DNA from: Pseudoflavitalea sp. G-6-1-2
GTDB taxonomy: Bacteria; Bacteroidota; Bacteroidia; Chitinophagales; Chitinophagaceae
Direction: 5' to 3'
Length of the DNA: 64,000 bases
Assembly (NCBI RefSeq): GCF_012927185.1
Contig: NZ_JABBGB010000002.1
Coordinates: 1,178,001-1,242,000, forward strand
This document shows, one piece after another, positions 9,108 through 29,751 of the stretch (within the stretch, counting starts at the first letter, position 1; every line of letters starts with the position of its first letter). The notes under the pieces are model-generated. The model was not told where the DNA came from and searched no databases. It saw nothing but the letters and a program-made list of their open reading frames with translations. The position numbers and the translations under genes were made by a program.

Positions 9108-10496
9108 TTAACGTTCATTCTGAGGGATTCCACTAAGAGCAATAACATCAGGTGGGATCGGTAATAAATATTTGGAATCATTAGGTGCTAAATAATATGT
9201 AAGCCCATTTAGCTTTCGTGTAAGAACTGAATTTCTATTTTCCTTATTGTAACGCTTAAGATCAGTCCAACGAAGACCGCGCATCACCAATTCCTTTTTT
9301 CTTTCATTCAATATCAGCTGTAAAGCATCTTCTGGCGTGTTTGCTTGCAAAGGTTTGAACTTATTCTTATCAATGCGATTTTTTAATAAGAGATTCAGCA
9401 TATCAATAGCATCTTCGGTTTTCCTCTCTCTTGCTAAGCACTCGGCTTTTATTAATACAACTTCATCAGTAGCTACTCCAGCATATGAAAAAGCACTACC
9501 AGAATATCCTCCTTTGAAGTTGGGGTGATTAGCCCCATTCATCAAAAAGAAAATATTCTTTCGCAAATCATTTACATCATAAGAATTATAGAGATTAGAA
9601 TCAACTACTGTCAATGGCTGAAGAATTCCATTCAGAACCTTTGATTCAACAGGCATGGTTGCAAAATAGATTGATTCGTCATTTTGAGCTTTGAATGGAT
9701 AAAAAGCGTTCTTATCAACCTTATTATAGTCGATCAGTTTATTGTAATATTTCAAGCAACTATCGGCATACTGATGCGCAATTTCATACGAACGATTACT
9801 TAAATGTATACGCGCCAGTACTGCAAAAATTGCGGGTTTACTAGGTCTGTTTCTAGCTTTAACAGGAATAGTATCTGGTAATAATAAAGAAGCCTGCTGT
9901 AAATCAGAAAAAATTTGTTTGTAGGTGTCACCCAAATTGGAGCGATGTGATTGTTCATCCACTTCAGGCCTTAGACGTATAGGTATACCTGGCTTTGCAG
10001 AGGCAGATGGGTCGTCAAAAATGTCGGAAAATAATACAGCCACATTATAAAACGCTAAACCCCGCACAAAAAATGCAGCCCCCTTTAAATAATTAAGTTC
10101 AACTTCTGTTGCGTCCTCAATAGTATTTTTTTCTAAAGCATCTAAAACAACATTACATTGCAATACTTGCTTGTAAGGCATATTCCAATCACCAATATTC
10201 GGCTGACCTTGAAAAATATCCTTGGCCCATATATAAGAATTCCTTTCCTTAGAATCCAGAGTTTCCCAATACCCTGGTTCAAAATAATATTCATCAGCTG
10301 ATAGGGTGCCTAACTCTGGCATAACATTAAGAAAAAAGGACTTATCCATTAAGGACTGTAACTCAACTTTTGATTTTGGAAGAAAAACATCTGAGCTTGG
10401 TTTTTCATCTAAAAAATCTTTTTTTGCACCGCAGCTGGCACCAAGTAGAGCGGTCAACAGACACAGTATATTAGAACATCGGAGGAGTAAATTCAT
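9108..10496 (-). CDS. SusD/RagB-family outer membrane lipoprotein
   Basis: The 462-aa product begins with a lipoprotein signal ending LLGASC (Cys22), followed by KKDFLDEKPSSDVF, a common SusD start. The middle has TPR-type helices that hold the ligand-binding surface, and the C-terminus has the NERKKELVMRGLRWTDLKRY segment found across SusD/RagB proteins. These lipoproteins cap a SusC barrel on the cell surface and capture glycan or peptide substrates. It starts 19 bases after the SusC stop. No glycosidase or peptidase is encoded with it, so the substrate cannot be inferred. Codon choice is AT-rich, like the barrel part of SusC. Confidence 0.93.
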   Translation of the reverse strand: MNLLLRCSNILCLLTALLGASCGAKKDFLDEKPSSDVFLPKSKVELQSLMDKSFFLNVMPELGTLSADEYYFEPGYWETLDSKERNSYIWAKDIFQGQPNIGDWNMPYKQVLQCNVVLDALEKNTIEDATEVELNYLKGAAFFVRGLAFYNVAVLFSDIFDDPSASAKPGIPIRLRPEVDEQSHRSNLGDTYKQIFSDLQQASLLLPDTIPVKARNRPSKPAIFAVLARIHLSNRSYEIAHQYADSCLKYYNKLIDYNKVDKNAFYPFKAQNDESIYFATMPVESKVLNGILQPLTVVDSNLYNSYDVNDLRKNIFFLMNGANHPNFKGGYSGSAFSYAGVATDEVVLIKAECLARERKTEDAIDMLNLLLKNRIDKNKFKPLQANTPEDALQLILNERKKELVMRGLRWTDLKRYNKENRNSVLTRKLNGLTYYLAPNDSKYLLPIPPDVIALSGIPQNER

Positions 10497-10515
10497 TATT
10501 ATACTGTTTTGAAAG

Positions 10516-13500
10516 TTAAAAATCCAACTTTATACCAATTGAATAACTTCTCTTTGCCGGATATGTGTCCAGGTAATCGGGATCTAGACCATATTTATTT
10601 GCTTTCCATAAAATACCTACATTATTAACATAGGCGTAGATCTCAGCCTGTTGAAAAGGAGTTTTCTTGTATTTGCTTTTAGCTAAGATATAGGAGCACC
10701 TGATATCTTTTAATCTAACATGATCGCCTTTCTCAACCAAGATTGTTGACATGTTATAAAATGCATCTCTATTGTTATCTGGTGGATAAACAAAAGAAGG
10801 AACATCAGTGATTAGCTCATCACCTGGTTTGCGCCATCTATTTGCAAAATCTGGATGACCAGGTGAAATGCCTGCAATCAATTCTATATAGTTGATGGAT
10901 GATCTTCTAAAATAATATCCGAGTTTCCAGCTAATGTTAAAAGACAATTCAAATTCTTTATAGGAAAATGTATTTATCCAATTGCCATAATGCGTTGGCA
11001 CTGCAGATCCTTTATAAATAATATCATCAAAATTAGTAGAGTTTACAATTTGCGGATAATCGGTACTTGGGTGGCCATTCAGATAACCAATAGGGCTTCC
11101 ATTCTGCGGATCCAGACCACCCCATTGTAAAGCGAGTATAGAATATAGCGGCTTACCGGCTAAGGGAGTCAATGAAAATTTGTTCAGATAGCTACCAATT
11201 CCACCTTTTACATCTTTATACTCATCTACCTTATCCAGAGAATAACTTGCAAGGAAATTGGTATGCCATTTTACTATCCCACCAGTAACCTTTGAATTCA
11301 AGGTAAGTTCAAAACCTTGCCCCTTCATAGAACTTGTATTACCTTTGAAAGTTTCAACACCCGTTGTAGGATCAACAGGTGTCACTCCTATCAGATCCTT
11401 TGCTTTTCTGAAGTAATAATCAAAGCTTCCTGAGAGGCAATCATTTTTGATAGAAAAATCCAATCCTAGATTTATCATATGCACTCTCTCCCACCTTAAT
11501 GACGGATTAGGTGGATTTGAAATTGATGCAGTTACATTGTTGAAGAAATTCAATCCATCAATAAAAGCCGTTGTGTAAGCTGAAACATCCCTGCCAACAT
11601 TTCCGCTATATCCATTAGTAAATCGAACTTTCAAATATGGAATAGCTTCTGAAGTATAGAAATTTTCTTTACTTATTATCCAGCTTACGCCTGCCGCCCA
11701 AAGAGGAACTCCTTTTTGATTGGCTTTGACTCCAAAAATATTTGACTCATCCTTTCTAATATTAATCGATAAATTGTAGCGGCCTTTGTAAGAATATAAC
11801 GCGTTTGAATAAACAGAAAAGAAATTGGCTGTTGTTCTGACAAAAGGACGAACAAACGGATTAGGAATTCTTACAAATGAATTTGGGTCATAATAATAAC
11901 TGTAATTAGAGAGGTAATCAACCTCCTGCCCCATGGGATGATCATCATCCAAGCCGTACAGTCTTTTTGAACTAAAATCGCTTCGTATACTACGGATCTC
12001 TGTTCCTCCAAGTGCTGAAAACTCGTGATCTCCTTTTGCAAACTTATATTCGGTCTGGGCTCTGCCGTAATGATTATTTCTGGTAACGTCAATATTATCA
12101 AGAATACCACCAAGTGGAATAATTCGACTAATCTTATTGTCAGAAACTCTTTGAGTAAAACTATTGATTAGATTCCTTGTATAATAAGAAGTTGGACTAT
12201 TATATTCCCTATTCTTACCCAATTCATGATAATACTGATAGGACAATATAACATCCCATCCTTTTAGTATTTTATGCTTTATACTGAAATCGAACTTATA
12301 CCCTTCAGTTTTTATACTGCCATTTCGAATTTTGGCCTCCTCCAGCGGTCGCAGATTCCAATCAAGCAGGCTGCCTTTCCCAGCAGTATCTTTTATAACC
12401 TGTCTTACATCACTAGGAACAACCGCCGCATTACCATTCTCATCAACCAGACTTACATATGGATTATTAATTCCCAGGAACCATTGCCGGTTATTCATTT
12501 GCTTAGTTGAGGTAACCATTATCCCCGTGGTAAGTTCTAATTTCTTCTTTAGTAACAGTAATGTATTGCTACCATTGATTGTAAACCTCTCTGAATTGGG
12601 AGCTGTAATATCTACATTTTGTTTGTCGTACCCTAATGACAGATAATAGTGGTTTATTTTAGTACCACCTCTTAGGTTAAGACTATATTGTTGCAGAAAG
12701 CTACTGTTTAACAATAACCTGTCAATATCACTTCTCTGATCGTTTCTGCGGAGTTGTTCAAGCTTCTGGTTTAACTCATCTTCACTTATAAGTCCTTTCT
12801 TTCTCTTGATCAATAGTTCAACAACTGGCGGGGCTGCTGCTTTTGATGATCCCAATTCAATCCCTCCATAAAAACCTCTCGAAAAAAGAATTTGTTCTAA
12901 CTCAACTCTTGATTCGGCGTTCATATAGGGAATATAGAACAAATCTGGCTTCTCAACTACAGTCATCGAGCTAGTAAATGATACCTTCAATGGTTGATTA
13001 TACTTACCCTTTTTCGTAGTAATTACAATTACACCATTTCCAGAAAGCGCACCCCATATTGCCGCCACCGCAGGATCTTTCAGAACAGTAATCTTTTCTA
13101 TATCATTTGGGTTTATGCTACTCAATGTTCCATTGTAAGGAAAATTATCAATAATGATTAAGGGATCTGCATTAGAAAAAATCGTTGACCTTCCCCGGAT
13201 ACTTATTTCAGATTGATTCAAACCAGGAGTAATATTCTTGTTAAGCAATAATCCACTGGTAATTCCATCCAATCTTTCTACAATACTTGCAGAGGCAAAA
13301 TTCCTGTTATACGTTTTATTATCTATCACATTATACGCACCCGTTGTGCGCCTTGCCACCTGCTTATCTATCCCCGACGTTATCGAAACATCATTCAACT
13401 CATTCGGTCTGCCTACCAACTTCACCACAACCTTCACTCCTTCTTCCACTGCTATCTCTTGCGGATCATATCCAACATTTGAAATAACAATTGTATCTCC

Positions 13501-13980
13501 TTTCTTCAATCGTTGTACCTGCAGATCGAAGGTTCCCTGGATATTCGTTGCTACGCCCCTGCTGCCGGGTGCTCCTTTCAGATATACCGTGGCGCCGTTC
13601 AACGGATCATCCTGTTCGTTCATTACTGTTCCACGGATATGTACAACCGGAGGTGGCGCTGGCTTCGGTGCAGGCTTAGGATTGTCCCGCACTATGGTTA
13701 CCATATTGCTGGCGAACTCATATGTAATGGGTAATTGTGCTTTGAAGATATTCAGCACTTCCTGAATGGAGGCATTCTGAACATAGATGGTTATCCGATC
13801 AGTTTCCAGAAACGTATTGGTCTGATAGAAGAAATTATACTTTGTCTGATTTTTTACAGATTCAATTACTTCCCTGGCGGGAGCATTGTTATACGATAGC
13901 GTGATCTGCGCATACGTATGTAGGCTGATGAGCAAGCAAACGATCAGTAATAATGCAGTTGTCTTAAAGGTTTTCCACAT
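10516..13980 (-). CDS. SusC/RagA-family TonB-linked outer membrane transporter with STN signalling domain
   Basis: The 1154-aa product has a signal peptide (1-24) and an STN (secretin/TonB N-terminal) domain at about 30-100, ending ASNMVTIVRDN. A proline-rich linker (KPAPKPAPPP) follows. Next are a carboxypeptidase-like beta-sandwich (about 113-200), a plug with SIRGRSTI and the long TonB-linked family signature, and a barrel. The STN domain is the part that signals to FecR anti-sigma factors, and FecR and ECF sigma genes lie directly upstream. The 5' end (bases about 13320-13980) is clearly richer in G+C than the plug, barrel and SusD part, which suggests a composite gene. Confidence 0.93.
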   Translation of the reverse strand: MWKTFKTTALLLIVCLLISLHTYAQITLSYNNAPAREVIESVKNQTKYNFFYQTNTFLETDRITIYVQNASIQEVLNIFKAQLPITYEFASNMVTIVRDNPKPAPKPAPPPVVHIRGTVMNEQDDPLNGATVYLKGAPGSRGVATNIQGTFDLQVQRLKKGDTIVISNVGYDPQEIAVEEGVKVVVKLVGRPNELNDVSITSGIDKQVARRTTGAYNVIDNKTYNRNFASASIVERLDGITSGLLLNKNITPGLNQSEISIRGRSTIFSNADPLIIIDNFPYNGTLSSINPNDIEKITVLKDPAVAAIWGALSGNGVIVITTKKGKYNQPLKVSFTSSMTVVEKPDLFYIPYMNAESRVELEQILFSRGFYGGIELGSSKAAAPPVVELLIKRKKGLISEDELNQKLEQLRRNDQRSDIDRLLLNSSFLQQYSLNLRGGTKINHYYLSLGYDKQNVDITAPNSERFTINGSNTLLLLKKKLELTTGIMVTSTKQMNNRQWFLGINNPYVSLVDENGNAAVVPSDVRQVIKDTAGKGSLLDWNLRPLEEAKIRNGSIKTEGYKFDFSIKHKILKGWDVILSYQYYHELGKNREYNSPTSYYTRNLINSFTQRVSDNKISRIIPLGGILDNIDVTRNNHYGRAQTEYKFAKGDHEFSALGGTEIRSIRSDFSSKRLYGLDDDHPMGQEVDYLSNYSYYYDPNSFVRIPNPFVRPFVRTTANFFSVYSNALYSYKGRYNLSINIRKDESNIFGVKANQKGVPLWAAGVSWIISKENFYTSEAIPYLKVRFTNGYSGNVGRDVSAYTTAFIDGLNFFNNVTASISNPPNPSLRWERVHMINLGLDFSIKNDCLSGSFDYYFRKAKDLIGVTPVDPTTGVETFKGNTSSMKGQGFELTLNSKVTGGIVKWHTNFLASYSLDKVDEYKDVKGGIGSYLNKFSLTPLAGKPLYSILALQWGGLDPQNGSPIGYLNGHPSTDYPQIVNSTNFDDIIYKGSAVPTHYGNWINTFSYKEFELSFNISWKLGYYFRRSSINYIELIAGISPGHPDFANRWRKPGDELITDVPSFVYPPDNNRDAFYNMSTILVEKGDHVRLKDIRCSYILAKSKYKKTPFQQAEIYAYVNNVGILWKANKYGLDPDYLDTYPAKRSYSIGIKLDF

Positions 13981-14117
13981 CCTGATAGAAGGTTACTTTT
14001 AGTGTAACTGAATGAAAGGAATATTGATTTTACACTACTACGCAGAAAAGACCGCTCCATTGCAATTCTACGTTTTCCTTCAGATAGTATAAAAGCTACA
14101 AACTGCGAACCTTTCAG

Positions 14118-14125
14118 CAAATATA
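14118..14125 (-). promoter_or_regulatory. Candidate -7 box for susC (TATATTTG)
   Basis: On the minus strand TATATTTG matches TAnnTTTG and lies about 140 bases before the SusC start, in the 278-bp gap after FecR. No TTTG -33 box is seen at the right spacing. Transcription here is expected to depend on the upstream ECF sigma factor, whose recognition sequence is unknown, so this box may be incidental. Confidence 0.35.
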
Positions 14126-14258
14126 GCCTAAGGTCGCAGTAAGTAGCTTCCGCCGCTTCTTATTTTCCGAAAAAAGCAGCACTAGGATGGGCTTAATGAT
14201 TAATGGAAAATCAGGTTTTACAGAAACAATGAATCAAACGTGATGCTCAAGTGCTTGA

Positions 14259-15488
14259 TTATAACTGTTTTACAACTATTTTCCTATTAGGTTTATCTAA
14301 GTATGTATGTATTCCGTTTGCGTTTAAAATTTTGAGTACATCTTCTATTCCGGCTTCACGGGGCAACTTACCCTCGAATTTCATTTCGGGAATGCTTCCC
14401 TGGAACTCCAGCCCTACATCGTACCATCTGGCGATCTGACGCATGAGTACATCAGCGCTTGTACCGGGGAAAAATCCGTCTTTCCATGAAACCAGCTCTT
14501 CTGCTGCGGGTATATCCTGCACAGTGAGCTTATCATTGGCTACCGCGAAATTGATGATCTTCGCCTGTTGACCGGGTTTCAGCACTTTGGAAAGATTTCC
14601 GCTGACAACTTTTACGGATCCTTTCAGCAAGGTGGTCTGAATGGCCGGCTCATTGGAATAAGCCATGATATTAAAATGTGTTCCTACCACTTCTACCTCT
14701 CCGATCCCTTTGCTGACTCCTTCGGGTGTAAGGTCAGCGGCTATCACTGCTTTGAATGGCTGACTGGGATTCTTAGCCACTTCAAAGTATACTTCACCGT
14801 TGATCGCTACCCTTCTTTCCCTGCCGTTGAAGGCTACCGGGAAACGAATGGATGATCCCGCATTGAGCCAAACCTTGGTCTGATCGGGCAGTATCAGCTG
14901 ATACTGTCCGCCACGGGGAGTTTTAATGGTATTGTATACTTCCGTTCCGTTCCCGCCTGCGGCTTTTGACTCGTAAACAAGAACACGGTCATTTACTTTC
15001 TTAATGGTTGAGTTGCCCTGTTCTGTGAGTATTCCATTGGCAGCTTCATTCAGCTGTACAGTGGATCCATCTGCCAGAATCAGTTCGGCTTTGTCTGTAC
15101 CGGGGAGTATCGCTTTATCTGTTTCTGCAATTATCTGCTGCTGTTGGGCAGCTTTTTTGTTCATCAGAAAATATGCTCCTGTGCCGATTACAAGCACTGC
15201 GGCTGCAGCCCAGCTGATCACTTTTACCAGATTTCTGCGGGGGCGCATCGGAATCACTGCTCCACCACTTATTGCATCCAGACGACTTTCCAGCTGACCA
15301 ATCCAATTAGAGGACGGCTTCCCGGAAATAACAGCCTGTTGCTGAAGTGTTTCAAACTCGCCGGCAATTGCTTCGATATGATCCATAGGGGCCCCATTCA
15401 CCCACTGCAGAAAAGATTCATGCTCTTCCTGCGTGTATTTGCCTTGAACAAACCTGGCAACAAATGTCCGTGCCTCCTGGATATTCAT
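14259..15488 (-). CDS. FecR-family anti-sigma factor
   Basis: The 409-aa product has a cytoplasmic N-terminal part (1-85, sigma-binding), one membrane segment (about 88-107), and a periplasmic FecR domain (about 180-290, with PRGGQYQLILPDQTKVWLNA and GEVYFEVAKNPSQPF). A C-terminal STN-like DUF4974 domain (about 335-405) follows, with GKLPREAGIEDVLKILN and a KIVVKQL end. The family senses a loaded TonB/SusC transporter and controls the partner sigma factor. It lies between the ECF sigma gene (120 bases upstream) and susC (278 bases downstream), the standard order for this circuit. Confidence 0.93.
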   Translation of the reverse strand: MNIQEARTFVARFVQGKYTQEEHESFLQWVNGAPMDHIEAIAGEFETLQQQAVISGKPSSNWIGQLESRLDAISGGAVIPMRPRRNLVKVISWAAAAVLVIGTGAYFLMNKKAAQQQQIIAETDKAILPGTDKAELILADGSTVQLNEAANGILTEQGNSTIKKVNDRVLVYESKAAGGNGTEVYNTIKTPRGGQYQLILPDQTKVWLNAGSSIRFPVAFNGRERRVAINGEVYFEVAKNPSQPFKAVIAADLTPEGVSKGIGEVEVVGTHFNIMAYSNEPAIQTTLLKGSVKVVSGNLSKVLKPGQQAKIINFAVANDKLTVQDIPAAEELVSWKDGFFPGTSADVLMRQIARWYDVGLEFQGSIPEMKFEGKLPREAGIEDVLKILNANGIHTYLDKPNRKIVVKQL

Positions 15489-15608
15489 AACATATATAAA
15501 GACACACGCCCGGAAAGAAAGGACACCTCCGACACTGATTTTTTTTGAGATTTTTTTGAGAAAAACCTGAAACTCAGTCCCAGCCTCACTTTTAAATAAT
15601 AAAAATAT

Positions 15609-16202
15609 TTACTGATCTAAGAGGGAAAGGAATACATATAATAAAGTAGTGATGCCGGCATTCCGCTCAAGGTATTGCCTTACGTGTGCGATGCCCGCAT
15701 AAAGTTGATTTTTTACGCCCGACTTGGAGATGCCGAGCTTTTCGGCTATTTCATCGAGGGTGAGGCCCTCGTCGATACTCATTTTCAATACCTGTTTACG
15801 ACCGGCAGGCAATTGTTCGATCGCTTCGGCCGCCATCTGGTAATACTGGTTCAGCACCAGCTTATGATCGGTATCTTCGGTAAACGGTTCGTCTGTAAGC
15901 TGCTGCGCTTCCTTGATCCGCTGCTGCACCCTGCATCCGCGGATATAGTTCAATACCTGATTCTTGGTGATCTTGAAGAGATAATTCTGAAAAGATTCAA
16001 CATTCGTAAGCTTATGACGCTTTTCCCAGATCCTTACAAAAACATCCTGAGTTAATTCATCCAGTTTGGAAGAGTCGAACGAGAACAGCAGAACGTACTG
16101 CTGCACAGCGCCGTAGTAATGGTTGTACACCTGTCTGAACGCATCCCTGTCATCTGCCGCCACCCGGTTCAATATCACCTGCTCATTTAAAAGGTTTTCC
16201 AT
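15609..16202 (-). CDS. ECF-type RNA polymerase sigma factor of the FecR/SusC circuit
   Basis: The 197-aa product has sigma region 2 (about 20-90, with DELTQDVFVRIWEKR) and region 4 (about 130-180, with LTLDEIAEKLGISKSGVKNQL). It matches the Bacteroidota FecI-like group, which works with FecR anti-sigma factors. It is held inactive until substrate binding at SusC is relayed through the STN domain and FecR, and then directs transcription of susCD (known for the family, inferred here from gene order). The hydrophobic LLYVFLSLL tail is common in this subgroup. Confidence 0.93.
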   Translation of the reverse strand: MENLLNEQVILNRVAADDRDAFRQVYNHYYGAVQQYVLLFSFDSSKLDELTQDVFVRIWEKRHKLTNVESFQNYLFKITKNQVLNYIRGCRVQQRIKEAQQLTDEPFTEDTDHKLVLNQYYQMAAEAIEQLPAGRKQVLKMSIDEGLTLDEIAEKLGISKSGVKNQLYAGIAHVRQYLERNAGITTLLYVFLSLLDQ

Positions 16203-16330: not shown

Positions 16331-16375
16331 AATAAAAAAGTCGCGGTATTGAATGTAAAACAATACCGCGACTTT
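16331..16375 (-). terminator. Terminator of the six-gene collar operon
   Basis: A 15-bp perfect stem (plus 16337-16351 with 16361-16375, containing GTCGCGGTATTG) around a 9-base loop is followed on the minus strand by a T-rich run. It sits 18 bases after the stop of the T9SS protein gene. Confidence 0.9.
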
Positions 16376-16392: not shown

Positions 16393-19131
16393 TTATTTCC
16401 TGATTATTCTGATGGTTTCCCCGTTCGATAGCCGTATCAGGTAAGCTCCTTTTACATATCGGGCGAGTGAAACCGTGGTAGCGGTCTGACTGATATAGAT
16501 CTGCTGTAACTCGCGTCCATCGCTGTTGTACAGCTTCGCCACCGTATTCATCAGGCTTCTGTCTGTGATGTTCAGTGTAATGTTTCCGTCTGTTGGGTTC
16601 GGATAGGCGGTAACGGTACCCCCCTGAACATTGTTCACTATCAGTACCTGACTAAAGGTGGTTCTTCCATCCTTATCGGTCTGGCGTATACGATAGTAAG
16701 TTCTTCCGGTTACTGCAGCTGCTTCCGTGAAGGTGTAATTATTTCTTCCATCACCTTTCGATGCCTGCGTATTTGCCGCAGCAAATGTTGATCCGTTGGA
16801 TGATCTTTCTACCACATAAGCGGCCACATTCGATTCTTCCACTTCCCATCTGATCTGAGCCCTTCCCTGTGGATCTGTAAGCGCTGTTACATTCAACCAG
16901 GTTACCGGAAGCACCGTAATAGCAGTCTGCAACACAAATCCGCTGAATCCGACTGCATCGAAACTGATCTCCCAGCGGTTTTCAGTGAGATTGAAAACGA
17001 TATCCGCATCATTCGGGTCGATTACGGTAGCCGCACCAGTATAAGTTCCCGGTAATCCGCTTCCATCGCTGGATGAGCCAGGATACTTGCCGATGCGCAC
17101 ATTTGCTTTTCCGCCTGCATCACCACTGTTCATTGGCAGTTTCAGTGTAGCTCCTGCATGTGCATTGAAGGCATCGAACTCACTTTGTTTGAAGTAGAGC
17201 GTTACTCTTCCGGTAGCAGTTGCAGCCCCGGTTGATGGTGTGATCTGGAAGTGACGCTGTACATATGGTTTTCCGTTTACAGCCGGGAATACCGGTACTG
17301 TCAGCGCCACTTTCACAAACGCCACCGTATTGCCACTGATCGGATTTGCTCCGTTGGGCACCACTTTGGCTATCAGTTTACAGCTTGCGCTTGCAATGAT
17401 GGTATTGGTTGCGGAGATGTTCACGCCTGTATTGGCTGCATCCTCATTGGCGATGCTCACAACAGGTGGATTGACGGTGGCAGACTTCATTACAGACTGT
17501 GATACAGCATCGGTTACTGTTACCGTGTAATTACCAGGACATAAACCCGTTGCCGTAGCAGCTGCACCTCCACTTGGCGACCATGAATAGTTATATGGAG
17601 GAACGCCGCCTGATACAGCAGCAGTAGCCGTTCCATTACATCCGTTATCACAGGAAGGATCTGTGGCGCTTGCTGTTACAACCAATCCCGCAGCCAGCTG
17701 TGCAATAAAAATATCTACATTACCCGCCGAGGTGCCGGGTATGGATCCAAAATTGGAGGAGCCACCAAATTGACCGCATACAGCAATTTTTCCGGCCGGT
17801 CCTCCGGTGGATATGCTATAAGCCTGATCAGTTCGCAACGGATCATTTCCATCAGCACTGATAGCCCATTGCCTGGTACCATCCGTCACCGACAATCCAC
17901 CTACCAGAATACCTGCCGCAACTGTTGCCGGCAGATTTACTGAACCAAAACTGAGTGCGCCACTGTAATATCCTGCCACATACACTGAGCCGGCATTATT
18001 GCTGCAAATAGCATTCCCCCTGTCTGCATCCGTGCTGCCTCCATTGACTGACCAAACAAAAGTATTGGTTGCAGGTGCATACCTGAGCACAAACAGGTCA
18101 TTGCCTCCGGAGCCCGTCAGTTGCGCATTTCCGGGGAAAGTGATATTACCCTCGAAGTAACCCGTTGCAAAAACATCCTGCGTTACCGGATCATAACAAA
18201 CACCGAGCATTTCATCATCTGCGCCACTACTTCCTCCGAATCCGTATGCCTGCAAAAATGCGCCGGTAGACGCATTCACTTCCAGCAATACCATTTCGTT
18301 ACCGCCTGAATTGGAGAGATTGAATCCTCCGTATACTGCATTGGCGCCGAAGTATGCTCCGGTAACAATCACTTCATTAAGACCGGGATGATAACAGATG
18401 GATGAACCTCCGCCATTATCGAAATTGCCGCTCGATCCGCCACTCACTGCCCACGTAACATTCCCGTTGTTTTTATCGAGTTTGGCAATTACCATATCGT
18501 TGCCGGATCCGCCCTGCGCACTCAAGGGAAAAGTTCCGAAAGTCATGGATGTATTGAAAGTGCCGGAGAAATACAAACCATTCCCGCCATCGAGACAAAG
18601 CGCCTGACCAACATCCGAGGAGGTTGATCCGAAATTCTTCGCCCACTGAAATGCACCGGTTCCGGCATTCAGGCTGGCAATGAAAATATCCGTTCCTCCG
18701 GTGGTGGGCAAACTGGTTGCACCGAACACACCTGTACCGGCATATCTGCCGGTTATAAAAACATTGGTACCGTCAGTTGTTATGCCGAAACCCTGATCCT
18801 GACTTGGCCCCCCGCATGTGGCGGCCCATTGAAAAGCACCGCTGGAATTGTATTTGGTGATAAATACATCTGTAACACCTGCCAGTGGCAGCGTGCTCAC
18901 AGCGCCGCTACCATCGAAGTCGGTACCAGCAGCAGAATAAGTACCGATCGTATATACGTTGCCGCTGGCATCTGTGCAGGATCCGCGGCCAAATTCACTT
19001 CCTCCCCCCTGCCCGATAACGGCTACGTTTGTCCATTTCTGAGCATAGGAACTCATCACTGTTGCTACCATACACATCGCGGCCAGCAATGTTTTACGGG
19101 CAAGTGACTTAATAGGTAAATGGTTTTTCAT
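16393..19131 (-). CDS. Large T9SS-exported protein with SBBP-type beta-propeller repeats and SprB-like repeat
   Basis: The 912-aa product has a signal peptide (1-30, ending SSYAQ). About seven repeats of roughly 60 residues follow (about 35-485) with recurring GTDIFIASLN, GNDMVIAKLD and WAVNGGS-like cores, as in SBBP beta-propeller repeats. A SprB-like repeat (about 490-545, DPSCDNGCNGTATAAVSGG), a beta-rich region, a fibronectin-III-like domain (about 745-830) and a type A T9SS sorting domain (about 843-912, YPNPTDGNITLNI) complete it. It is thus exported across the outer membrane by type IX secretion and probably anchored at the surface. It is the last gene of a six-gene operon, 10 bases behind the formyltransferase. 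Its ligand is unknown. Confidence 0.88.
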   Translation of the reverse strand: MKNHLPIKSLARKTLLAAMCMVATVMSSYAQKWTNVAVIGQGGGSEFGRGSCTDASGNVYTIGTYSAAGTDFDGSGAVSTLPLAGVTDVFITKYNSSGAFQWAATCGGPSQDQGFGITTDGTNVFITGRYAGTGVFGATSLPTTGGTDIFIASLNAGTGAFQWAKNFGSTSSDVGQALCLDGGNGLYFSGTFNTSMTFGTFPLSAQGGSGNDMVIAKLDKNNGNVTWAVSGGSSGNFDNGGGSSICYHPGLNEVIVTGAYFGANAVYGGFNLSNSGGNEMVLLEVNASTGAFLQAYGFGGSSGADDEMLGVCYDPVTQDVFATGYFEGNITFPGNAQLTGSGGNDLFVLRYAPATNTFVWSVNGGSTDADRGNAICSNNAGSVYVAGYYSGALSFGSVNLPATVAAGILVGGLSVTDGTRQWAISADGNDPLRTDQAYSISTGGPAGKIAVCGQFGGSSNFGSIPGTSAGNVDIFIAQLAAGLVVTASATDPSCDNGCNGTATAAVSGGVPPYNYSWSPSGGAAATATGLCPGNYTVTVTDAVSQSVMKSATVNPPVVSIANEDAANTGVNISATNTIIASASCKLIAKVVPNGANPISGNTVAFVKVALTVPVFPAVNGKPYVQRHFQITPSTGAATATGRVTLYFKQSEFDAFNAHAGATLKLPMNSGDAGGKANVRIGKYPGSSSDGSGLPGTYTGAATVIDPNDADIVFNLTENRWEISFDAVGFSGFVLQTAITVLPVTWLNVTALTDPQGRAQIRWEVEESNVAAYVVERSSNGSTFAAANTQASKGDGRNNYTFTEAAAVTGRTYYRIRQTDKDGRTTFSQVLIVNNVQGGTVTAYPNPTDGNITLNITDRSLMNTVAKLYNSDGRELQQIYISQTATTVSLARYVKGAYLIRLSNGETIRIIRK

Positions 19132-19141
19132 TGCACTTTTT

Positions 19142-20143
19142 TTATGATGAATGTTGATTAACTGATGGCGGGTTGGAGGGGGAGTTTGTTTGTAGAAAGG
19201 GGTGACTGCCCAATACGCATCCCGGCCTGATGCCGAACGAATGCAGGCGAAATCCGGGAAAGAAACCTTCTTCGCAGTAAACGATATTTATTCTGAGTAC
19301 TTCGCCATGCAGGCAGGAAACCAGCAAACCGGTTTGTTCACCGGAAGCGAGAACAGTGCCGGGCATTTTCGGTTGTTCGTTTGAGTGAACAGATGCATCT
19401 AACACAGTTGCATCTGTTACGCCGAACATCCAGTTATTCCAGCTGGTGGCTGCGCCTTTGTTCCAGGGATTGCAGGCCAGCGTCAATGCGCGGATCTCCG
19501 CAGCCGTCATGCTGTTCCAAAGGATCTGCACATCGGCAGCGGTTGGCCTCGGATACCACGCTATCAGCGAATTATCCTGAGGTATAGGATGGAGTGTACC
19601 TTCCTGCAGTCCTTTTAAAAGATTCCAGGTTAGCTGAAGGCCCGAATATGCAAGCTGGGTGCAGAACCAGCCATAGGTAAGATCGGGAGATATGGGGATG
19701 GATTGTTGCAATAAAACCGGACCATGATCGAACAGTTTATCCATTACATGCACTGTTACACCGCCAGTTTTTTCCTGCCGGCGCAACATCCAGAACAAAG
19801 GATTCGGTCCGCGGAATGCAGGCAGCGGTGCATAATGGAAATTGATAAACCCATGTTTCGGGATATGTAGCAATGAGGCAGGGATGCGCCATGGAAAAGT
19901 TTTCACCAGCACCACATCAGGCTGATACTGATTCAGCCATGCACCCAGTGCTTCTTCCAGCATTTCTTTTTCAAAAAAGCGGAAAGGAATATTGAACTGA
20001 CGGCACTGCTGCTGCACCATCATCTGTGTTTCGTGCATGCCCGCAGGCATGGCTACTGCTGCTGTGATGCCAGATCCAAGCAACCAGCCAACCGCAGGAA
20101 GACAGAGACGGTCGTTGCACAATATGGCTACCCTGATGTTCAT
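19142..20143 (-). CDS. Formyltransferase-family enzyme (Fmt/ArnA-like), not the housekeeping Fmt
   Basis: The 333-aa cytoplasmic product has an N-terminal formyl transferase domain with the catalytic trio Asn101, His103 (NFHYAPLPAFRG) and Asp139 (FDHGPV). The spacing is that of 10-formyl-tetrahydrofolate-dependent enzymes. A C-terminal domain follows with PGTVLASGEQTGLLVSC, as in the Fmt C-terminal fold. The usual SLLP after the His is APLP here. Relatives formylate Met-tRNA, UDP-sugar amines or other amino groups, or work in hydrogenase maturation. Its place inside an operon with collar proteins and a surface protein argues for a special acceptor, possibly a small molecule or a protein amine. 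It starts directly after the ligand-binding-fold gene. Confidence 0.82.
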   Translation of the reverse strand: MNIRVAILCNDRLCLPAVGWLLGSGITAAVAMPAGMHETQMMVQQQCRQFNIPFRFFEKEMLEEALGAWLNQYQPDVVLVKTFPWRIPASLLHIPKHGFINFHYAPLPAFRGPNPLFWMLRRQEKTGGVTVHVMDKLFDHGPVLLQQSIPISPDLTYGWFCTQLAYSGLQLTWNLLKGLQEGTLHPIPQDNSLIAWYPRPTAADVQILWNSMTAAEIRALTLACNPWNKGAATSWNNWMFGVTDATVLDASVHSNEQPKMPGTVLASGEQTGLLVSCLHGEVLRINIVYCEEGFFPGFRLHSFGIRPGCVLGSHPFLQTNSPSNPPSVNQHSS

Positions 20144-21268
20144 TCAGATGCAGAAATAATTATTCTTCCAGCCGGTGATCATATGATCTTCTCCGGCAAT
20201 GAGATAACGTAGATGCATAGTTGAATCGATCGGAATGGTTTCGTGATATTGCCAGCTGCATTTGCCATGCTGGTCGGGAACGATCATTCCATAATATACC
20301 GGTGCATACGTGTGGTTAGTATCGGCATGTATGGTTACTGCTCCTCTCGGACTCTGATAACTGAAGCCGCTCAACGATGCCCTTCCTTCCTGGTTCAGTT
20401 GCTGCAATACGGTAGCAGCTTCCCACCCCAGCAATGAAAACAGGTTCGGATTCTTATCCGCCCCATTTTTTATGGCAGCTGCAAACGCTTGCTGCTGCTC
20501 GTTTTCAATGGACGAATACCAGGGTACAAATGCATGGAATGTCCCTCCCGGAAAAGTGCATTTTCCCAACAACGCCTCCTCGGCCATGAAGGGTGAACAA
20601 TAAAATGGAATGGAAGTGGCCTTCTCGCCTGCCTGTTTAAGTGCATCGAAAAATAATTCCGCGAGGTAAGAACTGAAGCAGGCAGCAATTCCTTCCGGAC
20701 TTGTCTGCTGCAGCAATTCCATATACGGTTGAATAGTAAAATCTGCTTTTTTGTAGGTGCTTACATAATTGCCGCAGATGCTTCCGCCTGCTTCTTCAAT
20801 GCTTACATGGTAACCCCATGGACCACGGTATCCGCCGTCATAAAATGAGGTTGCCATCAATACGCGTCTGTTACCGGTTGCAGCTCTTGCGCCTGCGATG
20901 GAGCAGGCATGAACACCCTGCAGGGAAATATGAAAACAATAGTCGTTTTTGGGAGCCGTCATCAGTTGCATGCCGGCATCGAGAAAGATGAATGGCTTGC
21001 CGGTAGCAGTGGCCAGCGCATAGAGCGGTTCTGCATTGAAGAAATTGCTGTAGCAGATGATGGCCTGCACATCGTGCTGAAGAAGTATTTTTTCTGCGCA
21101 TGCATAGTTCACTGCGGGGTCTTCGCCGAATCCTATGTTGGCTGTTTCAAGGTTGTAAGCATTGAGGCCGGCAGCTGCCAGACCTGCTTTCAATCCTGCC
21201 AGAATATCGAAACCCATTGCAGGATACTCGCCGGAGCGCGGCAATAATATTCCTATAGTTTTATTCAT
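20144..21268 (-). CDS. Periplasmic-binding-protein-fold protein (Peripla_BP_6-like) without signal peptide
   Basis: The 374-aa product matches the branched-chain amino acid/amide-binding fold of ABC uptake receptors: it starts TIGILLPRSGEYPAMGFDILAGLKAGL and continues with alternating Rossmann-like lobes. It lacks any signal peptide or lipobox, so it is probably cytoplasmic. The best-known cytoplasmic member is AmiC, an amide sensor that controls amidase expression. No permease or ATPase genes are nearby, which argues against transport. It sits in the collar operon with 5 bases to the upstream collar gene and none to the formyltransferase, so it probably binds the small molecule that the operon handles. 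That last point is inference. Confidence 0.78.
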   Translation of the reverse strand: MNKTIGILLPRSGEYPAMGFDILAGLKAGLAAAGLNAYNLETANIGFGEDPAVNYACAEKILLQHDVQAIICYSNFFNAEPLYALATATGKPFIFLDAGMQLMTAPKNDYCFHISLQGVHACSIAGARAATGNRRVLMATSFYDGGYRGPWGYHVSIEEAGGSICGNYVSTYKKADFTIQPYMELLQQTSPEGIAACFSSYLAELFFDALKQAGEKATSIPFYCSPFMAEEALLGKCTFPGGTFHAFVPWYSSIENEQQQAFAAAIKNGADKNPNLFSLLGWEAATVLQQLNQEGRASLSGFSYQSPRGAVTIHADTNHTYAPVYYGMIVPDQHGKCSWQYHETIPIDSTMHLRYLIAGEDHMITGWKNNYFCI

Positions 21269-21273
21269 ATTGG

Positions 21274-21819
21274 TTATGGTCTTGCAGGGAATACTCCAAA
21301 CAAACAGATCACCATGGTCATACCAAGGTATGGACTGCGGTTGCTGAATGGCTGTGTGTTGCCGGTGAACCCGGTATTGACAGTTACATTATATGGTTTC
21401 ATTCTTGAATTGGGGGCGCTTCCGAATGCATTGCCGCCGCTGCTCAGCGGTGCATACACATTATTCTTGGGGTTGTTTGAATTTCCGTTGGAACTCGCAC
21501 AGCCGGGCGTTATGCCAATACTTACCTGATGCGTATGCGCAGGCATATTGGTCGTAAGCATGGTTACGGTTTCCGTTCCCCCTTGTTGCCCTACGTCGTA
21601 TTGTGAAAGTCCGGGCCCCTGCCCTGCGCCGATAATTGCTCTGCCCTGAAGATCAGGAAGGGCAAATGTAGTTTGTCCGTTTCCTCCATAATTAGTTCCC
21701 AGCAATGAGAAGAGTGCAGTATTCTGGGCGATGGGCATTAATTGTCCTGCACAGATGGCCCAGTTGCGGGGTGCGAAATTTCCTGCGAAAGGTGTTACAT
21801 ATGCAATTACTCCATCCAT
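21274..21819 (-). CDS. Phage tail-collar domain protein 3 (MdpB-like)
   Basis: The 181-aa product starts at ATG 21819 (MDGVIAYVTPFAGNF), aligned with the starts of its two paralogues; a longer frame upstream is ignored. The N-terminal 60 residues are a tail-collar domain: FAGNFAPRNWAICAGQ, SLLGTNYGGNGQTTF and ALPDLQGRAIIGAGQG. A Gly/Asn/Thr-rich middle follows and a YLGMTMVICLFG tail closes it. In phages this fold trimerises at the tail fibre base. Chromosomal relatives include the so-called microcystin-dependent protein. It has no signal peptide or T9SS tail, so its route to the surface, if any, is unclear. No other phage genes are present. Confidence 0.85.
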   Translation of the reverse strand: MDGVIAYVTPFAGNFAPRNWAICAGQLMPIAQNTALFSLLGTNYGGNGQTTFALPDLQGRAIIGAGQGPGLSQYDVGQQGGTETVTMLTTNMPAHTHQVSIGITPGCASSNGNSNNPKNNVYAPLSSGGNAFGSAPNSRMKPYNVTVNTGFTGNTQPFSNRSPYLGMTMVICLFGVFPARP

Positions 21820-21850
21820 ATTGAATTGTTTCTGGGGTGAAGAAAATTTA

Positions 21851-22399
21851 TCAGTTTGGTGGCGGATAAATGCCGAATACAGCAATGATGTAATTCATGG
21901 CGAGGTAGGGCGGCAAGATCTCCATGGGAATATTGCTGCCCGCCGGGCTTGTACTGCCGGTACCCGTTGTAGGTGCCAGTCCCAGTCCGTCGGCCGATGC
22001 ATTGAATACATTTTGTGATGCTATTGCTGGCACATTGCCATTGGGCGTATTGAGATTGCCTGCACTGGTGGCAACCAGTGGTGCTCCTGTGATGCCCGTT
22101 ACACTGTGATTATGCGCAGGCATCTGATTTACGGTAACTGTGGTGGTTTCGGTACCGGATGTTTGTCCGATTACATACGTATTGCCACCCGAAGTTCCTG
22201 CATGGATCGCTATTCTGCTTTGCAGATTCGGAAGTGCAAACGTATTTACGCCATCGCCTCCGTAAGTAGTGCCGATGAGATTGTACAGCACATCATACTC
22301 CGATATGGCAAGTAAGGCGCCGTTGCAGAACATCCATCCTACAGGGGCGAAATTGCCTGCAAACACCGTTACAAATCCTATGTAAGGTTGAGTAAACAT
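21851..22399 (-). CDS. Phage tail-collar domain protein 2
   Basis: The 182-aa product starts at ATG 22399 (MFTQPYIGFVTVFAGNFAPVG); the frame extends upstream into the previous gene but the paralogue alignment fixes this start. It has the same collar architecture (LYNLIGTTYGGDGVNTFALPNLQSR) but a distinct N-terminus from its neighbours, which both begin MDGV. The middle region is variable and rich in Ala, Asn and Thr, and it ends YLAMNYIIAVFGIYP. Separate sequences kept side by side suggest three different subunits or specificities rather than simple copies. It lies 10 bases after the first and 31 bases before the third collar gene. Confidence 0.85.
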   Translation of the reverse strand: MFTQPYIGFVTVFAGNFAPVGWMFCNGALLAISEYDVLYNLIGTTYGGDGVNTFALPNLQSRIAIHAGTSGGNTYVIGQTSGTETTTVTVNQMPAHNHSVTGITGAPLVATSAGNLNTPNGNVPAIASQNVFNASADGLGLAPTTGTGSTSPAGSNIPMEILPPYLAMNYIIAVFGIYPPPN

Positions 22400-22409
22400 A
22401 TTCGTTGAT

Positions 22410-22955
22410 TTAATTCCTTGAAGGATAAATGCCGCTGAGGCAGATAATGTAATTGATGGCCAGATAAGGAGGCATAATGGAAACAGGCTGATTATTTCCT
22501 GCATTGGCGATCACGCCTGTATAAGCCGGTGTCTGCAAAAAATTGCCTGCCACTCCGTTTGCTGCGAAAGAATTGTTGAAGCCTGCGATGTAAAATCCAT
22601 CGGGCAGCGGCTCCGATGCAGGCGTTGAATCACATTCATAACTTACGGAAACAGTGCCATTGAGGTGTGCATGCTGAGGCAGATTGTTTATGGTGAGTGT
22701 GGTAGTGGTACTACCTCCGACCTCGCCAAGGTTGATGTTTGAAAGCCCTGGTCCCTGCCCGGTTCCTATCGGCGCACGCCCCCGAAGATCGGGCAAGGCA
22801 AATGTTGTAGTGCCATTGCCCCCGTAGGTTGTACCAAGCAGCGAGAACAATGCCTGATTTTGGGCAATAGACAATATCTGCCCATTGCATAATGCAAAAT
22901 ACTTTGGAGCATAGTTAGCCGCAAAGCAGGTTATTACTGCTAATACTCCGTCCAT
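22410..22955 (-). CDS. Phage tail-collar domain protein 1, first gene of the operon
   Basis: The 181-aa product begins MDGVLAVITCFAANYAPKY and has the collar core SLLGTTYGGNGTTTF with ALPDLRGRAPIGTGQG. It ends with the same YLAINYIICLSGIYP tail as the other two. The differing central region (about 95-150) includes two runs of small polar residues. As the first gene after a 235-bp gap it probably carries the operon promoter upstream, but no TAnnTTTG box was found there. A 12-bp palindrome GTTTAATTAAAC lies 11 bases before the start. Confidence 0.85.
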   Translation of the reverse strand: MDGVLAVITCFAANYAPKYFALCNGQILSIAQNQALFSLLGTTYGGNGTTTFALPDLRGRAPIGTGQGPGLSNINLGEVGGSTTTTLTINNLPQHAHLNGTVSVSYECDSTPASEPLPDGFYIAGFNNSFAANGVAGNFLQTPAYTGVIANAGNNQPVSIMPPYLAINYIICLSGIYPSRN

Positions 22956-29262: not shown

Positions 29263-29751
29263 TTACATCGCTTCGTAAATCTGATTCAACTGGAGATCGT
29301 GATCGCCAATGCGACTGCGAAGTTCTTCCAGTTGAAAGCTCAATTCATTTCTGGTGGCCATCAATTTCCGCACTTCCACAAAGGCACGCATGATGGCAAT
29401 ATTCATGTTGATGGCTTTGTCTGAATTAAGGATACCGCTGAGCATGGCTACGCCTTGTTCGGTGAAGGCATATGGCAGATAGCGGTTACCTCCTTTTGAG
29501 ATCACAAATTGTGATCTCAAAGCTTCGGGTTGAAGTTTGTTTGAGGTTTCAATTTGAAACCTCAATGCATCTACTTCATCTTTAGTGAGTTGAAACATAA
29601 AATCTGGGGGAAACCGCTTCAGGTTCCGTTTTACTGCCTGATTGAGCATTCTGGATTCTGTTTCATAAAGTATAGCCAGATCTCTGTCTATCATCACCCT
29701 TTCGCCCCTGATCTCATAGATACGGGCAGGAATGTTCTGCATAATTTCCAT
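29263..29751 (-). CDS. ORF6N-domain DNA-binding protein
   Basis: The 162-aa product has an ORF6N domain (about 7-115: YEIRGERVMIDRDLA, LNQAVKRNLKRFP, YLPYAFTEQGVAMLSGILNS), then a short coiled coil (about 128-158). ORF6N is a phage-associated, KilA-N-related presumed DNA-binding domain that is common on Bacteroidota chromosomes, with roles not established. The variable part holds two look-alike motifs, ALRFQIETS (about 62-70) and ALRSQFVIS (about 77-85), encoded by two perfect DNA palindromes. No prophage genes are adjacent. Confidence 0.88.
   Translation of the reverse strand: MEIMQNIPARIYEIRGERVMIDRDLAILYETESRMLNQAVKRNLKRFPPDFMFQLTKDEVDALRFQIETSNKLQPEALRSQFVISKGGNRYLPYAFTEQGVAMLSGILNSDKAINMNIAIMRAFVEVRKLMATRNELSFQLEELRSRIGDHDLQLNQIYEAM
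29495..29565 (-). repeat. Two perfect palindromes inside the ORF6N gene
   Basis: Palindrome A: arms TTTGAGATCACAA (29495-29507) and TTGTGATCTCAAA (29509-29521) with one central base. Palindrome B: arms TTGAGGTTTCAA (29541-29552) and TTGAAACCTCAA (29554-29565) with one central base. Both encode the LR-x-Q motifs and are 19 bases apart. Confidence 0.9.

Follow-up and report, generated by a model that had tools for sequence, protein, structure and literature searches.

Three phage tail-collar paralogues in a conserved bacterial gene unit linked to type IX-secreted surface proteins

Introduction

The tail-collar domain (PF07484) is a phage tail-fibre domain, found for example in gp12, the short tail fibre of T4 (1ocy), and it also occurs in bacterial operons of non-phage type. 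RhiB, a collar protein encoded in the rhiABC(D) operon of Rhizobium leguminosarum, is reported to have a connection with the interaction between plants and bacteria (PMC13133039), and a PF07484 protein of Ruegeria pomeroyi DSS-3 (YP_165745.1) was detected in exoproteomes, i.e. outside the cell (PMC4949626). Here we describe a six-gene unit in a 64,000-nucleotide stretch of the Pseudoflavitalea sp. G-6-1-2 genome (contig NZ_JABBGB010000002.1, positions 1,178,001 to 1,242,000; hereafter the window). The unit encodes three collar proteins (C1, C2 and C3), a protein of the type-I binding-protein fold (PBP), a stand-alone formyltransferase (FMT) and a protein with a sorting domain of the type IX secretion system (T9SS), here called T9.

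The unit shares single traits with several described systems. With RhiB it has in common a collar-domain protein in a non-phage operon, but the rhi operon is flanked by luxI/luxR-like quorum-sensing genes, no Pfam domain was found in its RhiA and RhiC proteins, and the accessible part of the source mentions neither a PBP nor a formyltransferase (PMC13133039). No luxI/luxR-type regulator was noticed by eye among the open reading frames (ORFs) of the window, and no model search was made for them. A location outside the cell, as reported for the R. pomeroyi protein (PMC4949626), is what we propose for the collars. In Ruegeria sp. TM1040 a collar trio stands with a GNAT acetyltransferase and a DUF6916 protein and, unlike the window unit, shows no match to the PBP or FMT profiles. 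The collar domain matches gp12 by profile (E = 1.8e-6), and C3 carries an HxH motif (H95 and H97, invariant in 24/24 aligned collars) that may correspond to the gp12 HxH metal site. Unlike gp12 and the phage collars, the window proteins have no fibre shaft, are about 180 aa long, and come as three paralogues in a bacterial operon with a T9SS partner.

The remaining subunits also have known relatives. PBP shares the type-I fold with AmiC of Pseudomonas aeruginosa, a cytoplasmic amide sensor; the window unit encodes neither AmiR nor an amidase, and PBP differs in its conserved C-terminal tail and in its adjoining collar genes. FMT has the two-domain build and the N-H-D residues of methionyl-tRNA formyltransferase and of the ArnA domain, but it scores 112.3 bits against a cut-off of 201.5 for the fmt model TIGR00460, below the methionyl-tRNA formyltransferase threshold, and a second Formyl_trans_C protein, most likely the housekeeping Fmt, is encoded on another contig of the host genome. 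A limited test of the open-access literature found no description of a module of collars and T9SS cargo.

Results

Collar genes are linked to genes for T9SS cargo

Collars were found in 77 of 296 genomes of the phylum. We surveyed 92 loci, comprising all collar places among the matches listed outside the window, with the places in at least two genomes (G159 and G286) left out; 17 loci were first met via the PBP search. A collar ORF was obtained at 86 of them (L084, L087, L122, L128, L138 and L139 enter no count), gene starts being mechanical calls. Sixty-four of these loci, including 17 PBP loci, contain a collar of 160-240 aa. In 37 of the 64, a T9SS-sorted gene lies downstream on the same strand, and in 16 it is cut, a class that includes genes ending at the border of the requested stretch; loci with only other collar lengths have such a gene in 3/22 cases. 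Counting ORFs of 150 aa or more, and without correction for relatedness here as in all our counts, T9SS-sorted products make up 43 of the 105 same-strand ORFs within 5 kb downstream of free-standing collars versus 24 of the 403 ORFs elsewhere in the same loci (Fisher test, 3e-17). When one sorted gene end per locus was picked by our own C-terminal domain (CTD) model, 37/37 matched PF18962 and TIGR04183 at E 0.01. Because sorted genes are enriched downstream of collars and are confirmed by the library models throughout, we regard collar plus T9SS cargo as the core of the module, and PBP and FMT as options. The link between collars and a T9SS surface protein, proposed in an earlier note on this DNA, is thereby borne out.

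T9 itself exceeds the cut-offs of both sorting-domain models (PF18962, 32 bits versus 27; TIGR04183, 37.1 bits versus 23; type A), contains one SprB repeat over cut-off, and by eye begins with a signal-peptide-like stretch. The earlier description of T9 as an exported propeller-repeat protein holds for its sorting domain; its propeller part rests on residues 52-196, which match an SBBP beta-propeller lipoprotein model partially and far under that model's cut-off. PorV, the T9SS component searched for, gave two matches over cut-off in the host genome.

Three loci of family f36 (L118, L124 and L132) have short collars (88-115 aa), and in their vicinity no T9SS gene was detected (L118 has a cut gene); they are apparently another collar setting, perhaps phage.

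The unit is conserved, with variable partners

The six genes are separated by gaps of 10, 31, 5, 0 and 10 bases and are followed by an intrinsic terminator whose hairpin folds at -25.8 kcal/mol versus a shuffled mean of -7.2, none of 200 shuffles being as good; coordinates and fold energy thus agree with the single transcription unit described earlier. PBP was searched for in 59 relatives (10 with a match, own genome included), a pattern scan covering 84,980 species genomes yielded 8 loci, and a 14-row PBP profile gave a match at E 1e-20 or better in 18 of the 296 phylum genomes, again with the own genome included. Excluding the own genome, and taking L015, L018 and L022 as contigs of G004, G005 and G002, we count 31 further PBP loci. 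A collar gene stands beside the PBP gene in all 31, and FMT follows PBP in 19. T9SS cargo follows in 20 of the 31 (20/22 judgeable; BLAST was the sole basis for the T9 gene in G002), is cut in nine, and was not seen in L029 and L030. The complete unit is found in Pseudoflavitalea rhizosphaerae (L015), a culturable relative, whereas Niastella caeni (L019) lacks FMT but has the collars, PBP and T9. Co-occurrence of collars with a Peripla_BP_6-like protein and an Fmt-like protein was thus recovered in relatives, as was a conserved unit of collars and PBP.

The proposal that all six genes constitute the system was not supported in that form. Trios lacking the other three genes, which the earlier note named as a finding that would break the idea if routine, do exist. 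The 21 trios of the survey include seven with PBP, seven with FMT and six with GNAT (one combining PBP with GNAT, five PBP with FMT), and seven with none of the three, and mostly it is the T9SS cargo that stays with the collars. The interpretation thus finds partial support, and its centre shifts to a wide module of collars and a secreted protein, of which the six genes represent one version.

At L058-L062 (five loci, one family, f42), the collar-PBP pair is preceded in 5/5 cases by a conserved protein 124-127 aa long, the L062 copy of which has no Pfam match. Histidine kinase and response regulator genes also stand beside collar units, often divergent and often with genes for a small protein and a membrane protein (L048-L051, L066, L090 and L110; by eye, L019, L020 and L026). 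Such a pair, which likely regulates the collar module, was not seen beside the window unit. The models used for the kinase, the response regulator, CTD, GNAT and DUF6916 were built from the surveyed loci.

C1, C2 and C3 belong to separate subunit lineages

No collar match beyond the three unit genes was found in the host genome (E 0.001). In a quick maximum-likelihood tree, with the Shimodaira-Hasegawa-like approximate likelihood ratio test (SH-aLRT) as the only support measure, C1, C2 and C3 each fall into a clade of 10 loci (SH-aLRT 97, 95 and 99 respectively) that consists of the same-position genes of the same nine other loci, from Chitinophagaceae and Flavobacterium where named. Across 36 trios the tree requires 27 changes of position label, as against a mean of 55 and a minimum of 49 in 60 within-locus shuffles. 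GNAT-type trios also form position clades, which span three loci of the phylum together with Comamonas and Aminobacter (SH-aLRT 96, 93 and 83; the last set also contains L065). At one locus (L101:7174-8814), a single 547-aa chain contains three fused collar domains, with T9SS cargo downstream.

If a trimeric fold had become an obligate hetero-trimer, one would expect subunit lineages that keep their position through descent and, in cis, a fusion of three domains and no more; we infer that C1-C3 form such a trimer. Maintenance of three distinct subunits by descent holds for the window's clade of 10 loci and not for every trio. The earlier view of the collars as diverged paralogues fitting a hetero-oligomer gains from these position-specific clades.

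PBP is a family with a signature tail

The PBP N-terminus reads MNKTIGILLPRSG (MNKTIGILL), without a signal peptide by eye. Its AlphaFold model reaches a predicted local distance difference test (pLDDT) score of 86.9, and its fold matches in the PDB include aromatic-acid and urea binding proteins, with AmiC at rank 14 (1qnl, 1pea). The C-terminal tail lies outside the confident fold (pLDDT under 50); its residues W367, N369 and C373 are invariant in 14/14 aligned members, and the tail signature recurs in 16/18 PBP members of the survey (exceptions, L064 and L069). The notion of an ABC (ATP-binding cassette) transporter substrate-binding protein was rejected, as PBP has no signal peptide and the unit no transporter gene. 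An AmiC-type sensor would share the leaderless type-I fold; an AmiR-like regulator partner was not found in the unit.

Distant PBP homologues in Deinococcus ficus and at locus L069 start with leaders resembling those of twin-arginine translocation (Tat) by our own pattern. With the curated Tat models, the D. ficus protein was below cut-off and the L069 protein silent, the latter being a weak match to the family (42 bits to the PBP profile, no Pfam family). The PBP branch may thus not be simply cytoplasmic: the earlier claim of a cytoplasmic protein held as far as the missing signal peptide goes, and the homologues with Tat-like leaders speak weakly against the rest. We do not call every family member leaderless, because the L029 frame could start upstream with a hydrophobic stretch. 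Among plasmids, PBP matches (20 of 24 records listed) showed 23-27% identity and, where annotated, were ordinary substrate-binding proteins.

Two types of acyltransferase occupy the same kind of unit

In FMT the complete Asn-His-Asp trio noted earlier is confirmed: N101, H103 and D139 are invariant in 10/10 aligned sequences, the window's included. These catalytic residues suggest formylation chemistry, and the PDB relatives of FMT include ArnA and sugar N-formyltransferases. Other loci hold a GNAT acetyltransferase and a DUF6916 protein where PBP and FMT stand, and in Deinococcus ficus a trio, PBP and GNAT lie in a row. FMT was present in 12/86 loci and GNAT in 7/86, none having both, which with so few GNAT loci could be chance. 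The GNAT model was built from the seven survey loci and matched only those; Pfam confirmed GNAT for L074 and L105 only, and DUF6916 together with GNAT for L074. Because FMT and GNAT occupy the same kind of unit, amine acylation, rather than the formyl group as such, would seem to be what matters. N-terminal acylation of the collars was considered from their second residues and dropped: these are small in 16 of the 19 scored at GNAT loci (1/20 not scored) and mixed at FMT loci (10 small, 15 large, 4/29 not scored).

Some units have a further setting. The trio and formyltransferase of L073 lie among genes for PqqD, Transglut_core3, Asn_synthase, NTP_transf_5, sulfotransferase and Asp/Asn hydroxylase proteins; L077, also a trio with a formyltransferase, looks alike by eye, and L029 (five collars and PBP) has NTP_transf_5. 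This maturation-type gene set is reminiscent of lasso-peptide clusters.

Collars with leaders lack PBP, FMT and GNAT

Leaders were called by a script seeking a hydrophobic stretch or a twin-arginine (RR) motif, and Tat calls rest on our own pattern. At 22/86 loci a collar has a Sec- or Tat-like leader, which points to collars working outside the cytoplasm in those lineages. PBP, FMT or GNAT was found near 27/64 leaderless loci versus 0/22 loci with a leader (p = 9e-5), and the contrast persists in loci with 160-240 aa collars (27/50 versus 0/14, p = 1.4e-4). Taken singly, each against 0/22, the frequencies in leaderless loci were 12/64 for FMT (p = 0.03), 7/64 for GNAT (p = 0.18) and 18/64 for PBP (p = 0.005); FMT and GNAT pooled gave 19/64 (p = 0.002). 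The absence of these partners from leader loci indicates that the acyltransferases go with collars whose own N-terminus is retained.

In the related trios L071:229-2272 and L148:3705-5670, a full Tat-like leader is present on one collar; another retains the RR motif but no hydrophobic stretch, and the last has neither. Export of a hetero-trimer by means of a single leader would be expected to look like this. The pattern looks like leader decay with hitch-hiking export; the curated Tat model was silent here. TatC is present in the host genome.

Collar trios on plasmids

A C3 query against plasmids matched 70 records (E 1e-5), often at three places within a record, and ten regions were read in detail. 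In Deinococcus, Comamonas, Aminobacter, Paenibacillus, Ruegeria and Sinorhizobium, at most one gene separates GNAT from the trio; in Spirosoma a formyltransferase takes this place. Comamonas, Paenibacillus (at the GNAT end), Ruegeria and Sinorhizobium have, adjoining the trio but on the other strand, large proteins annotated as YDG, Ig-like, choice-of-anchor or Ig; in Spirosoma a large cellulose-binding protein lies alongside on the same strand. In Tateyamaria a sulfotransferase and a protein with a carbamoyltransferase domain accompany the trio, Hymenobacter combines one collar with an Ig-like protein, and the single collar of Burkholderia anthina has a phage tape-measure region on one side and a DUF4347 protein on the other.

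The unit is not a prophage

Against PHROGs, the collars match phage tail families and FMT one moron family. C1 has relatives in 185 phage records, all below 60% identity. A PHROGs scan of T9 and nine neighbours (the TonB gene at 10516-13980 was left out) found no phage structural protein among them. PBP had no match in 50,697 phage records (E 0.01), and the 36 pattern matches in viral contigs included no gene for a relative. We therefore rejected a prophage or tailocin, in agreement with the earlier judgement.

Discussion

Our preferred reading, to which we give a little less than even confidence, is that the unit encodes a bacterial recognition or adhesion device derived from the phage tail-tip fold, made up of a hetero-trimer, PBP, FMT and a T9SS surface protein. 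C1, C2 and C3 would assemble with one strand of the collar trimer per gene, like the receptor-binding tip of T4 gp12, and PBP would dock to this trimer, perhaps via its conserved tail. FMT would act in the cytoplasm and formylate an amine, which most likely belongs to the collars, to PBP or to something carried by them. T9SS would export the propeller/SprB-repeat protein to the surface, where T9 and the collar tip might act jointly in binding other cells or glycans.

Several observations weigh against this reading. No leader is visible on the window collars or PBP, and no Tat-signal gene was noticed by eye among the window ORFs; for ten proteins tried, curated Tat models (TIGR01409 and PF10518) gave sub-threshold scores or none, and Tat-like neighbours are only weakly in excess (9/206 versus 6/396, p = 0.05, two of the nine doubtful). 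Since no locus with a collar leader has PBP, FMT or GNAT, the leaderless subtype that does could equally stay cytoplasmic. Four trios (L049, L069, L079 and L104) cluster by locus in the tree, L073 and L111 do so partly, and L110 is unresolved. The trimer has no structural support, because the AlphaFold model of the collar monomer failed (pLDDT 46). Finally, a downstream T9SS gene is missing at 11 of the 64 loci with free-standing collars, and the large repeat protein of the plasmid loci is mostly on the strand opposite to the trio.

The chief rival is a cytoplasmic sensor-regulator, in which PBP binds a small molecule as AmiC does, collars and FMT tune the production or maturation of T9, and only T9 is exported. 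The leaderless state of C1-C3, PBP and FMT (by eye), the AmiC structures among the PDB matches of PBP, and the cytoplasmic folate cofactor that FMT is expected to need all suit it, yet a domain search found no regulator or DNA-binding family among the six unit genes. The collars of relatives carry leaders, a collar protein of another phylum was detected outside the cell (PMC4949626), and the Tat-like leaders of distant PBP homologues count weakly in the same direction; we consider this rival unlikely. Still less probable, in our estimate, is a collar complex that carries, or acts as a scaffold for, a surface glycan or small molecule in modified form, with FMT (like GNAT, sulfotransferase and lasso-like genes elsewhere) decorating a sugar or peptide cargo held by PBP. 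The sugar N-formyltransferases and ArnA among the relatives of FMT, the resemblance of PBP to small-molecule binding proteins and the gene settings of L073 and, by eye, L077 would fit such a carrier, but the six unit genes include no glycosyltransferase or sugar-nucleotide enzyme, and FMT is missing from 12/31 PBP loci. A domesticated phage or tailocin tail remnant without a present role would account for the phage origin of the collar domain and for its relatives in phage records; it is largely refuted, and we regard it as highly improbable, given the lack of phage structural genes among the neighbours scanned, the lack of PBP matches in phage records and viral contigs, three intact ordered orthologues across genera, and the linkage to T9SS cargo.

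Returning to the recognition or adhesion device, a broader form of it may be proposed, which we consider less likely than not. Loci in Bacteroidota, Pseudomonadota, Deinococcota and Bacillota would represent one class of surface system, in which a hetero-trimeric phage-tip fold, acylated in the cytoplasm on amines by interchangeable formyl or acetyl enzymes and sometimes joined by a binding-protein subunit, is exported pre-assembled (through Tat in some lineages, with one leader per trimer), and a giant secreted repeat protein serves as stalk. Stand-alone collars in the annotated plasmid records examined are mostly labelled 'tail fiber protein', a name hinting at phage debris. In this phylum, free-standing collars often form a fixed module with a secreted surface protein, keep three paralogues as separate subunits, and are accompanied by two unrelated amine acyltransferases. 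If our reading is right, they would belong to a recognition system that is widespread in bacteria and makes use of a phage part, which would offer a testable frame for RhiB-type plant-linked proteins.

Genomic setting of the unit

Table 1. Features of the collar unit (positions in the window).
Feature	Position	Strand	Description	Evidence
C1	22410-22955	minus	First collar protein, 181 aa, leaderless, start MDGV	PF07484, E 5e-26
C2	21851-22399	minus	Second collar protein, 182 aa, leaderless, start MFTQ	PF07484, E 1.4e-24 (query with one extra upstream codon)
C3	21274-21819	minus	Third collar protein, 181 aa, leaderless, start MDGV	PF07484, E 1e-25
PBP	20144-21268	minus	Type-I binding-protein fold, 374 aa, without signal peptide	Peripla_BP_6, E 2.3e-29
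PBP C-terminal tail, residues 361-374	20147-20188	minus	Family signature W-x-N-x3-C	
FMT	19142-20143	minus	Stand-alone formyltransferase, N and C domains, 333 aa	PF00551, E 1.2e-20; PF02911, E 3e-9
T9	16393-19131	minus	Secreted protein, 912 aa	PF18962, TIGR04183 and SprB, all over cut-off
Intrinsic terminator	16331-16375	minus	Closes the unit	Fold energy versus shuffles, z = -9.0

By domain search, the unit (Table 1) is flanked upstream by a DUF2130 gene on the plus strand, and downstream by genes for an extracytoplasmic function (ECF) sigma factor and FecR. The latter belong to a stretch at 9108-16202 in which ECF sigma and FecR genes are followed by TonB-receptor-like and SusD-like ORFs (these two by eye), a usual uptake set with its own regulators. 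A lone anti-repressor-like gene that matches phage anti-repressor families lies at 29263-29751, ∼6.3 kb from the unit.

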